From an uncultured Eubacterium sp. (GTDB lineage Bacteria; Bacillota; Clostridia; Lachnospirales; Lachnospiraceae): a DNA stretch of 64,000 nucleotides. The notes beneath the pieces are model-generated. The model was not told the DNA's origin and made no database searches. It was given only the letters and a program-made list of their open reading frames with translations. Made by a program: the position numbers and the translations under genes. The stretch lies in contig CAJFUA010000065.1 of assembly GCA_904420085.1 (NCBI GenBank), positions 1 through 64,000 of the forward strand. Direction: 5' to 3'. Shown here piece after piece: positions 27,877 to 61,612 of this stretch (the first letter of the stretch is position 1; each line of letters starts with the position of its first letter).

Positions 27877-28248
27877 CTATATTTCTGCAATAACTTCTAC
27901 TTCACAGAGCACGTTTTTCGGCAATGTCTTTACTGCTACACAGCTTCTGGCAGGTTTGTTTGTAAAATACTTTCCATAGATTTCATTAAATGTGGCAAAA
28001 TCATTCATATCTGCTAAAAAGCAGGAGGTTTTTACCACATGATCATAACTTAGTCCTGCTTCCTGCAAAATAGCGCCAAGATTTTTCATAACCTGCTCTG
28101 TCTGCTCTTCAATAGTTGTTCCCACAACCTCGCCTGTTGCCGGTTCCAGTGCAATCTGACCGGATGTAAATAATAAATTTCCTGTTTTCACTGCCTGTGA
28201 ATATGGGCCGATAGCCGCAGGCGCTTTATTTGTACTTAACTTTTCCAT
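27877..28248 (-). CDS. ridA: RidA family enamine/imine deaminase
   Basis: A trimeric deaminase of 123 residues that removes reactive 2-aminoacrylate-type intermediates. Motifs include APAAIGPYSQAVKTGNLLFTSGQI, the catalytic Arg region NKPARSCVAVKTLP and the final CEVEVIAEI. It has its own promoter. Length and ends match the family. Confidence 0.94.
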   Translation of the reverse strand: MEKLSTNKAPAAIGPYSQAVKTGNLLFTSGQIALEPATGEVVGTTIEEQTEQVMKNLGAILQEAGLSYDHVVKTSCFLADMNDFATFNEIYGKYFTNKPARSCVAVKTLPKNVLCEVEVIAEI

Positions 28249-52598: not shown

Positions 52599-53633
52599 AT
52601 GAAAGAAAAACGAATTTCATTTTTATTCATTATTTTTACAATAACTGTACTGCTCACAGCATGTGATGCAGCCTCAGACAATACTTCTAATGCTCCCAGA
52701 ACTTATACCCATTTTTGTTTTGATACGGTATTCCAGCTGACTTTCTACTCGTCATATCAGGAAGGAGAACAGAATATTGCTGACACCGCCTTTCAAATGT
52801 GTGATAAGTACGATCAATTGTTTAATAAATACAATAAAGAAAGCGAACTGTACCGGATAAATTCTCATCCCTTAACCGGTGCGAAGGTTTCCGAAGAAAC
52901 ATTTGAACTCATTTCGGACAGCAGATATTATGCCGGACTAACGGACGGTGCTTTTGATATTACCATTTCACCCGTTACCGACTTGTGGGATATAAACAAA
53001 AATCCCCATGTACCAAAGAAATCGAAAATCAATAAAGCATTAAAATATGTAAATTACCAGGATATCATTCTGAAAAATAACCGTGTGAAACTGTCATATC
53101 CAACCCAGTCCATAGATTTAGGCGGAATTGCCAAAGGATATGTGGCGGATCAACTGAAAGATTTTCTTGAAAGTAAACAGATATCTTCCGCCATCATCAA
53201 TCTGGGGGGCAATATTTTAACCATTGGTAACAATCAGGGAGAGGACTTTAAAATCGGTATCAAAAAGCCTTTCGCCCAGAAAGATGACGAATACTCCGCT
53301 ACTATTCATATACGGGACAAGTCCGTAGTCACATCCGGTATTTATGAGCGGTATTTTGAAGAAAACAATAAAATATATCATCACATACTGGATCCTGAAA
53401 CAGGTTATCCGGTAGAGAACAATTTATATTCCGTGACAATTATTTCTGACCGTTCCGAAGAAGGCGATGCGCTAAGCACCGCCACCTTCGTCATGGGGCT
53501 TGAAAAAGGACTTTCTTTTGTCAATCAGTCCGAGGGAATCGAAGCGGTCTTCATAACAAAAGATTACAAACTCCATTTGTCTGACGGTTTGACCATCAAT
53601 GATAAACAGGAAATCCACATTACCAATGAGTAA
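52599..53633 (+). CDS. apbE: FAD:protein FMN transferase ApbE, lipoprotein
   Basis: A lipoprotein of 344 residues that transfers FMN from FAD to a Thr in target flavoproteins such as RnfG and RnfD. The signal peptide ends in lipobox LLTAC with Cys22. The FAD-binding and catalytic segments DGAFDITISPVTDLW, SIDLGGIAKGYVADQL and the C-terminal DALSTATFVMG are present. It is the only plus-strand gene here and faces the GerA-type gene tail to tail (9 bp gap). The rnf operon that needs it begins about 1.5 kb away. Confidence 0.95.
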   Translation: MKEKRISFLFIIFTITVLLTACDAASDNTSNAPRTYTHFCFDTVFQLTFYSSYQEGEQNIADTAFQMCDKYDQLFNKYNKESELYRINSHPLTGAKVSEETFELISDSRYYAGLTDGAFDITISPVTDLWDINKNPHVPKKSKINKALKYVNYQDIILKNNRVKLSYPTQSIDLGGIAKGYVADQLKDFLESKQISSAIINLGGNILTIGNNQGEDFKIGIKKPFAQKDDEYSATIHIRDKSVVTSGIYERYFEENNKIYHHILDPETGYPVENNLYSVTIISDRSEEGDALSTATFVMGLEKGLSFVNQSEGIEAVFITKDYKLHLSDGLTINDKQEIHITNE

Positions 53634-53642
53634 ATTCGTCGG

Positions 53643-55052
53643 TTATTTATTTTTGATGGATACCCGGAAAAATCTCTGCATAAATTTCTTAAAGTCAAAA
53701 GGATACAGCGGATATATATAACTTGTCCTTGCAATGGTCCGATTGCATACAATGGCAGCAATGGCAACAAAAATTCCCACAATAAATCCGGTAAAATGAA
53801 ATAGCTCCGTCAGCACCAGCAATATTAAACGTAAAAATTTAATGGAATATGCCAGTTCGTAGTTCTCATGGGTAAAATTCGCAATGGCAACCACTGCCAT
53901 ATATAGCATGGTCTGCTCGTTAAACCAGCCTGTATTTACTGCAAATTCTCCTATAACAATGGCGGCAATCAAACTGAGCGGTGTATTCAGCGTACTTGGT
54001 GTATTAATTGCCGCCAGTTTTAAACCATCTATGGCAAGTTCCAAAATCAGAAGCTGCCAGAATATGGGAACATTCTGTGGTTCTATGATTCTGGTAAAAG
54101 ACAGCCAGTCCGGTATCATTCCCGGATTATTTGCATATAGCAAAAATAACGGTGTCAAAAGAAGAGAAAGAACCGTAATAGATGCTCTGGCCAGCCTTAA
54201 ATAAGTACCGGTAATGGGTGGAAAATAATAGTCATCCGCTTCTTCTATCACATCAAATATGGTGGTCGGAAGCAACATGGCAGCCGGTGAATTGTCTACC
54301 AGAATACAAATCTGCCCTTCCAAAATTTCAGCAGCCACCGTGTCCGGACGCTCCGTATAGCGAAACTTTGGAAAAGGATTGAACCAATGCCCCTTGTGAA
54401 TACATTCCGATAAACTTTCCTGATTCATCGGCAAAGCATCCACATCAATTTTTTGAATCTGCTCTTTAATATAGTTTAGAAGTTTCTTATCGGCTCTCCC
54501 ATTAATATAGCAGATGGCGATATCCGTTCTGGAACTTTTTCCTGCCCGGACAATTTCACACATATATTCCGGATTTCTGATTCTTCGACGGATTAATGCA
54601 GTATTCATCAATAACGTTTCCACGAAACCATCTCTGGAACCGCGAAGAACCTTATATTTTTCCGGTTCCTGAACATTTCTTGCCGGATAGTTCCTCACAT
54701 CAATCAGCATGGCTTTTTCATATCCGTCTATCATCAGACATACCACACCGGACAGAATAAATGTTAAAACATTATACTTATCCTCAAACAAGTCCACCTG
54801 TATATAAGGGATTTTATTCTCAGAAAAATCTTCTACTTTTTGAGGAAGTTCCTCTTCCGTCATATTACAGAAAAACTCCTCCACTTTCTGTATCATATCA
54901 TTATCGCAAAATCCATTGATAAAATACATCACACCGTCACGGTTTCCGATTTTAAAGTTTCTTTTTAAAATATCAAAACTTTCATGAATATGAAGAATTT
55001 CATCCAGTTTTTTTTCATTTTCTTTCAAATTTTTTGTTATAAAATTTTCCAT
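53643..55052 (-). CDS. GerA/SpoVAF-type spore germination protein
   Basis: A membrane protein of 469 residues from the GerA family. A soluble N-terminal half (RGSRDGFVETLLMNTALIRRRIRN) leads into the membrane part with four or five helices, including the family motif TPLSLIAAIVIGEFAV. It is a stand-alone gene without GerB or GerC partners, as for SpoVAF, which lacks them too. A sigma-G-like promoter lies directly upstream. The start codon follows the rnfB terminator hairpin by seven bases and uses its 3' arm GTGAGG as Shine-Dalgarno. Confidence 0.85.
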   Translation of the reverse strand: MENFITKNLKENEKKLDEILHIHESFDILKRNFKIGNRDGVMYFINGFCDNDMIQKVEEFFCNMTEEELPQKVEDFSENKIPYIQVDLFEDKYNVLTFILSGVVCLMIDGYEKAMLIDVRNYPARNVQEPEKYKVLRGSRDGFVETLLMNTALIRRRIRNPEYMCEIVRAGKSSRTDIAICYINGRADKKLLNYIKEQIQKIDVDALPMNQESLSECIHKGHWFNPFPKFRYTERPDTVAAEILEGQICILVDNSPAAMLLPTTIFDVIEEADDYYFPPITGTYLRLARASITVLSLLLTPLFLLYANNPGMIPDWLSFTRIIEPQNVPIFWQLLILELAIDGLKLAAINTPSTLNTPLSLIAAIVIGEFAVNTGWFNEQTMLYMAVVAIANFTHENYELAYSIKFLRLILLVLTELFHFTGFIVGIFVAIAAIVCNRTIARTSYIYPLYPFDFKKFMQRFFRVSIKNK

Positions 55053-55084
55053 AAAAATACCTCACACTACTTTATAGTGTGAGG
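55053..55084 (-). terminator. rnf operon terminator, overlapping the GerA-type start region
   Basis: CCTCACACT and AGTGTGAGG form a nine-base stem, followed by TATTTTT and the ATG of the GerA-type gene. It ends the rnfCDGEAB transcript 18 bases after the rnfB stop. Confidence 0.85.
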
Positions 55085-55104
55085 CAATCTTTCTAAAATA
55101 TTCA
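55075..55104 (-). promoter_or_regulatory. Sigma-G-like (forespore) promoter for the GerA/SpoVAF-type gene
   Basis: TGAATA (55104..55099) overlaps the rnfB stop codon; a 17-bp spacer leads to CACACTA (55081..55075). The sigma-G/F consensus is GMATA or TGAATA with CATAMTA at 17-18 bp. The -10 lies inside the 5' arm of the rnf terminator, so transcripts from here should lack that arm. Confidence 0.65.
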
Positions 55105-55920
55105 TTTGATTTCTTCAATTACTTTCTTCGGACATTTCAAAACGCAGGTTCCACAGTTCTGACATTTATCCTGCATAATGGTTGCCAGATTAAATCCAAA
55201 ATCAATGGCATCATGAGGACAGTTCTTTGCGCACAATCCGCATCCGATACAACCGGCGCTGCATGCCTGCATCACATCTTTTCCTTTATCTTTGGAACTG
55301 CATTTCACCATATATTGGGTATCATACGGAATAATGGAAATCAACCCTTTCGGACACGCTTCCACACATTTTCCACATGCTTTACACTTGTCTCTGTCTA
55401 CCACTGCTTTTCCATTTTCAATATGAATGGCATCAAACTCACAGGCTGAGACACAGGACCCCAGTCCTAAACAGCCATAACTGCAGGCTTTCGCTCCACC
55501 GCCCGGAATATTTGCCGCATCCTCACAGGACATATTGCCGTGATAAACATATTTATTCTTTGCCTTGTCACAGTCACCGGAACATGCCACATAAGCAACT
55601 TTTTTTACGATTTTTGCCTCTATGCCCACAATCTTTGCAATCTGTTCTGCCACCTCAGCACCACCTACCGGGCATGATCCCGGGTCACTTTCTCCTTTTG
55701 CAATGGCAGCAGCCAGTCCGTCACACCCCGGAAATCCGCAGCCTCCACAGTTATTTCCCGGAAGTACTTCCCGAATAGCGGCTTCCTTTTCATCAACGTC
55801 TACTGCCAGAAACTTTCCGGCAATTCCTAAAGCTATTCCTATAATTAATCCGACGCCACCGACAATTAATACCGCCCACAAAACGGCTTCCATAGTGGCG
55901 CTCATTGCTATCATTCCCAT
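55102..55920 (-). CDS. rnfB: Rnf complex subunit RnfB (ferredoxin-type)
   Basis: The electron-input subunit of the Rnf complex, 272 residues. One N-terminal membrane helix (AVLWAVLIVGGVGLIIGIALG) precedes a Cys-rich cluster domain with CGGCGFPGC (Cys58, Cys61, Cys66) and Cys83, then several 4Fe-4S motifs (CGKCVEACP, CGLCAKNCP, CGTCVLKCP). It receives electrons from reduced ferredoxin. It is the last gene of rnfCDGEAB. Confidence 0.96.
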   Translation of the reverse strand: MGMIAMSATMEAVLWAVLIVGGVGLIIGIALGIAGKFLAVDVDEKEAAIREVLPGNNCGGCGFPGCDGLAAAIAKGESDPGSCPVGGAEVAEQIAKIVGIEAKIVKKVAYVACSGDCDKAKNKYVYHGNMSCEDAANIPGGGAKACSYGCLGLGSCVSACEFDAIHIENGKAVVDRDKCKACGKCVEACPKGLISIIPYDTQYMVKCSSKDKGKDVMQACSAGCIGCGLCAKNCPHDAIDFGFNLATIMQDKCQNCGTCVLKCPKKVIEEIK

Positions 55921-61414: not shown

Positions 61415-61612
61415 TTATTTACCGCTCATCTGTCTTTCCTGAGCTTCGATCATCTTCTTAACCATCTGTCCGCCAACAGAACCAGCCTGAGCTGATGTTA
61501 AGTTACCATTGTATCCGTCTGTAAGCTGAACACCTACTTCAGATGCACATTCCATTTTGAATCTGTTCATTGCACTCTTAGCTTCTGGAACATTTACTTT
61601 TGTGTTACTCAT
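61415..61612 (-). CDS. Alpha/beta-type small acid-soluble spore protein
   Basis: A DNA-binding spore protein of 65 residues that coats and protects the DNA of dormant spores. Both family helices are intact: the first with the germination protease region MNRFKMECASEVGVQL and the second with GYNGNLTSAQAGSVGGQMVKKMI. GGAGGT lies before the start and a forespore-type promoter about 70 bases upstream. It shows that the organism or its recent ancestor makes spores. Confidence 0.96.
   Translation of the reverse strand: MSNTKVNVPEAKSAMNRFKMECASEVGVQLTDGYNGNLTSAQAGSVGGQMVKKMIEAQERQMSGK

Follow-up and report, generated by a model that had tools for sequence, protein, structure and literature searches.

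A predicted terminator-like hairpin that carries a sigma-G-type promoter and a putative translational lock in front of gerA-family germination genes of Lachnospiraceae

In the insertion sequences IS10 and IS50, transcripts that enter from outside fold back and hide the start site of the transposase gene, while RNA made from the element's own promoter does not. To our knowledge, no terminator role is known for this fold-back inhibition and, unlike the locus described here, these systems belong to mobile elements and work without a developmental sigma factor. In phage T4 gene e, as in soc, 49 and I-TevI, a late promoter lies inside a hairpin that sequesters the Shine-Dalgarno sequence (SD) (PMC3014915, PMC2988022). 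Our locus resembles gene e in that long early transcripts are predicted to hide the SD in a helix, with a later promoter within the helix region, and in that the later RNA, made without the 5' strand, can be translated, which is documented for T4 and predicted here. Two things set it apart from gene e: its later promoter resembles those of the forespore factor sigma-G and sits on a bacterial chromosome, and its helix doubles as a terminator-like hairpin whose U-run extends up to the start codon. For Bacillus subtilis sigG, a hairpin has been proposed to block translation of spoIIG read-through RNA; as predicted at our locus, transcripts from the forespore promoter of sigG itself are unable to form it (PMC5942855, citing its refs 9 and 52). 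The gene and the upstream operon are different here, and our hairpin is a short, terminator-like one with a 5' arm that coincides with the promoter's -10 or spacer. The arrangement is also found again in many genera, following the orientation of the upstream gene.

Like ordinary intrinsic terminators, the hairpin has a GC-containing stem followed by a U-run; unlike them, its 3' arm is the SD of the next gene and a promoter lies between or within its arms. A literature search, with most subscription journals beyond its reach, found no earlier case of a sporulation gene whose SD overlaps a terminator. The logic itself is not new: it is known from T4, and for B. subtilis sigG it has been proposed. 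The gerA form is a new, recurrent variant, distinguished by fusion with a terminator-like hairpin, by the placement of the anti-SD strand within the promoter and by a recurrence tied to upstream orientation.

The element between rnfB and gerA

The element occupies about 50 bases of the minus strand in the window, by which we mean the whole 64-kb stretch of DNA that was analysed. Upstream lies rnfB (55102–55920, minus strand), the last gene of the rnf operon, identified by RnfB models and 4Fe-4S domains. Downstream lies a germination gene (53643–55052, minus strand) whose product matches the GerA family profile PF03323 at 472.7 bits against a curated cut-off of 27, the only such gene in the genome. 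The first-pass annotation had called it GerA/SpoVAF; the family assignment stands and the specific SpoVAF name is not supported, since the product gave no SpoVAF equivalog match, only a GerXA match far under the GerXA cut-off, and spoVAC is on a separate contig (C72), placing gerA outside the spoVA operon. The range first assigned to the element (53053–55104) also takes in the 3' end of an apbE-like gene (52599–53633, plus strand), which lies outside it. This gene and gerA are convergent, their stop codons 9 nt apart (53633–53643).

Read along the minus strand, a -35 hexamer TGAATA (55099–55104) overlaps the rnfB stop codon TGA (55104–55102) from its first base and is followed, after a 17-nt spacer, by a -10 CACACTA (55075–55081). 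This -10 is within the 5' arm of the hairpin, CCTCACACTA (55075–55084), which is the anti-SD strand. A loop TAAAG (55074–55070) leads to the 3' arm, TAGTGTGAGG (55060–55069). The 3' arm contains the SD GTGAGG (55065–55060), seven bases before the gerA ATG (55052–55050), exactly as first described. Between SD and ATG, the segment TATTTTT (55053–55059; T-run 55057–55053) is both the U-run of the terminator and the SD-to-start spacer. The hairpin after rnfB is real in sequence, but its stem, originally given as nine bases, has 10 contiguous pairs, or 12–13 with flanking pairs. Its inverted repeat occurs once in the genome, and Rfam covariance models gave no relevant match to the element. From the promoter spacing, the predicted start lies about 7 nt past the -10, where the 3' arm begins (55067–55070, near 55068).

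To score the promoter, we used a matrix refined by expectation-maximization (EM) on gerA leaders of the family, the same leaders to which it was then applied, starting from a sigma-G-like consensus; the refinement converged on TGHATA / CATACTA across 160 loci. The spoVAC upstream regions yielded no sigma-G promoter usable for training. With a matrix trained only on the leaders from genera other than that of the window, TGAATA-N17-CACACTA ranked first of all matches on both strands of the 64 kb. It matches the sigma-G consensus at -35 and -10 with a spacing within the 17–18 nt range. The sequence and this rank uphold the promoter as first proposed, with its -10 in the 5' arm and its -35 on the rnfB stop.

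Predicted folding separates the two kinds of transcript. The predicted folding energy of read-through RNA is -23.4 kcal/mol (z -6.6), a value equalled by none of 200 shuffles, and the stable stem with its U-run has the form of an intrinsic terminator. RNA starting near 55069 is predicted to be free of notable structure. The cost of opening the SD is calculated at 22.4 kcal/mol in read-through RNA versus 2.9 kcal/mol in the short transcript. These values agree with the earlier proposal of an SD free in the sigma-G transcript and closed in read-through RNA, and in the predicted folding of long transcripts an upstream strand covers the SD, as in the lock of the T4 gene e type. We express the lock as ddG, the extra SD-opening cost due to sequence upstream of -20. 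At 16.5 kcal/mol, gerA has the strongest lock among the 57 gene starts scored in the window. A second SD lock (ddG 12.1 kcal/mol; AAAACCTTCTT ... AAGAAGGTTTT) is found at a RidA-like gene (27877–28248, minus strand, start 28248), where a sigma-A-like TTGATA-N17-TAAAAT lies between the arms and the upstream gene is M23-peptidase-like, both gene names being judged from sequence.

Conservation within the genus

Among 23 genomes of the genus, gerA is present in 13; sigG is found in the same 13 and a small acid-soluble protein (SASP) gene in 12 of them. The other ten (1.1–1.9 Mb) are without gerA, sigG and SASP and are apparently asporogenous members of a sporulating genus. The gene next upstream of gerA is rnfB in 13/13 loci. 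In nine of the members without sporulation genes rnfB was found, followed by plain terminators with different stems and by no sigma-G motif.

In the sporulating members the -10 (CACACTA or CACAATA), the complementary GTGTGAGG and the -35 are largely conserved, and T-run and loop length drift. The promoter is retained at this place in 12 of the 13, the exception being G417 with a poor score; the comparison with relatives supports the promoter role. Eleven of the 13 retain the hairpin; it is weakened in G398 and replaced in G403. In G398 a separate terminator is present and the lock is weak (z -0.6). In G403 the SD stem is lost; the -10 region pairs instead with the ATG and the first codons, forming a new stem (z -4.1). 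The U-run is weak or absent in G417, G414 and G398. Of the terminator as originally proposed, the stem and SD pairing are thus mostly preserved, but the terminator part proper is the least conserved in the genus. G282 (L138) carries a self-folding insert of about 200 nt in the hairpin loop, between rnfB and gerA, with both arms intact and the promoter retained as TGCATA-N17-CACACTA. The insert bears a AAAATTGTAC/GTACAATTTT inverted repeat and had no match in Rfam.

Two other sporulation genes of the genus showed conserved start regions. At sigG, in 12 of the 13 sporulating members, AAAGAGCC or a near variant upstream pairs with ATGGCTCTTT at the start codon, and the pairing adjoins a sigma-F-like -35 (G000:C21, which is L112; L166–L177). 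Judged from sequence, this pairing is a putative start-codon lock of the same kind as at gerA; it is sporadic in the rest of the family and missing in G282. The SASP gene (61427–61600, minus strand, in the window; L154–L164) has a promoter AGTTTA/AGTGTA-N17-CATAATA; downstream of it, at about the expected start, lies a conserved TAGTGTAACA.

Survey of gerA leaders across the Lachnospiraceae

We gathered 201 gerA loci of the family, which gave 167 distinct leaders, 160 of them with a recognisable SD and an upstream gene called; upstream genes were called by codon usage, and they and the start codons are heuristic calls. The pairing probability of the SD zone was tried as a lock measure and was saturated, telling the groups apart poorly (80/92 versus 27/41 loci, and more than 50% of shuffles), so it was replaced by opening energy. 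With a strong lock defined as ddG of at least 8 kcal/mol and a close upstream gene as one within 180 nt, both cuts being picked after inspecting the data, strong SD locks were present in 60 of 92 loci with a close co-directional gene, in 4 of 27 with a co-directional gene beyond 180 nt and in 0 of 41 with a divergent upstream gene; related species are not independent, and Fisher values of this association are inflated by relatedness. The picture was the same for ddG thresholds from 6 to 12 kcal/mol and when the window genus was excluded (52/81 close co-directional loci). Dinucleotide shuffles reach 8 kcal/mol or more in 1.1–1.4%. The tree shows 11 changes of orientation and 12 of the lock; of 9 independent pairs, 3.4 agree and 0.1 disagree, which has the right sign and is not significant. 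Comparison thus supports the suggested insulation from upstream transcription, the lock tracking a close co-directional gene across the family. It also shows that the element is not specific to rnf: the same plan occurs at gerA loci behind other genes, which in a sample were mostly housekeeping or metabolic (dUTPase (dut), fabH-like, a TPP-domain enzyme, melibiase, an rpiR-type regulator and others). Among gerA orthologues outside the Lachnospiraceae, 0 of 20 had a strong SD lock. Two of another Clostridia family (L313, L314) have a strong terminator with a CATAATA-type -10 in the loop and the SD outside the stem, that is, a promoter in a terminator without an SD lock.

Promoters accompany the locks: 57 of the 60 have one above the 95% shuffle level, and in 55 of these 57 the predicted start lies beyond the end of the 5' arm. 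In the predicted sigma-G transcripts, the median opening cost of these 57 falls from 16.0 to 3.2 kcal/mol, the drop is at least 6 kcal/mol in 57/57, and none remains at 8 kcal/mol or more. Alignment of 42 leaders gave a common order of TGHATA, a 5' arm ACTCCTTTT in the promoter spacer, a -10 of AATACTA or CATAATG, a loop, AAAAGGAGT as SD and 3' arm, a T-run and the ATG. The anti-SD strand is thus at the -10 in the window and in the -35/-10 spacer in most other Lachnospiraceae. Double compensated changes were seen at 7 of 8 family stem pairs.

A U-run follows the SD arm in 53 of the 60 family locks. This would also be expected if the hairpin were only the terminator of the upstream gene, overlapping the SD because the intergenic space is short and hiding it without a role, and the plain terminators after rnfB in asporogenous relatives point the same way. 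We regard this explanation as unlikely. Among 413 other genes of the same loci, only 3 reach a ddG of 8 kcal/mol and none of these has a U-run; moreover, G417 and G414 retain the stem without the U-run, and the stem re-formed in G403 closes the ATG. Counting against our own reading, in 23 of the 92 close co-directional loci ddG is below 5 kcal/mol, with a recognised separate terminator in just 5 of the 23, versus 3 of the 60 locked loci, which is a weak trend only.

If the palindrome overlapped the promoter as an operator in the DNA, bound by a forespore regulator, this would account for the near-perfect inverted repeat over the -10. We rejected this very improbable reading on account of the half-site distance, which varies among genus members; in addition, the repeat is found once in the genome, and the arms elsewhere in the family are quite different and lie in the promoter spacer and the SD. 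Hardly any more credible is that the complementarity of promoter strand and SD is a coincidence, with -10 and SD conserved separately: covariation in the genus is slight because each is constrained and nearly invariant, but the pairing recurs family-wide with different arms and compensated changes and is absent from all 41 divergent loci, though most of these have promoters and SDs, so that the combined evidence disfavours it.

Proposed mechanism and wider meaning

Altogether, the sequence comparisons suggest that the element is probably a promoter-gated insulator, in which a terminator and a translational lock act together against vegetative read-through. Polymerase arriving from rnf would transcribe both arms, and the hairpin with its U-run would end most rnf transcripts; in read-through RNA that escapes, the gerA SD would be closed within the stem. 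In the forespore, sigma-G polymerase would initiate just past the 5' arm, and its transcript would therefore be unable to form the stem. Such a transcript would be neither terminated nor locked, and gerA would be translated. The anti-SD strand would then be built into the promoter itself. For the cell, we infer the start point, sigma-G dependence, termination and repression from these features, and the putative roles in stopping, starting and hiding are all supported comparatively.

A portable rule is conceivable, and we offer it tentatively. When a late forespore gene lies behind a co-directional growth gene, selection may place an anti-SD strand within the spacer, -10 or -35 of the late promoter. 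The outcome would be a combined terminator and translation lock, opened by the late sigma factor simply when it starts inside it. At gerA this solution would have evolved repeatedly, in different letters, and in this genus it would serve sigG as well. If the rule is true, lock status would predict which sporulation genes are under read-through pressure.

Our results suggest that the stop for one gene, the developmental promoter of the next and a lock on translation may all be encoded in a single short sequence, whose plan evolution may retain while its letters change. The lock offers a simple signature for locating other developmental genes insulated from read-through. Co-directional, divergent, asporogenous and insert-bearing relatives form a natural series, which could be used to ask why germination proteins must stay out of growing cells in gut Lachnospiraceae.
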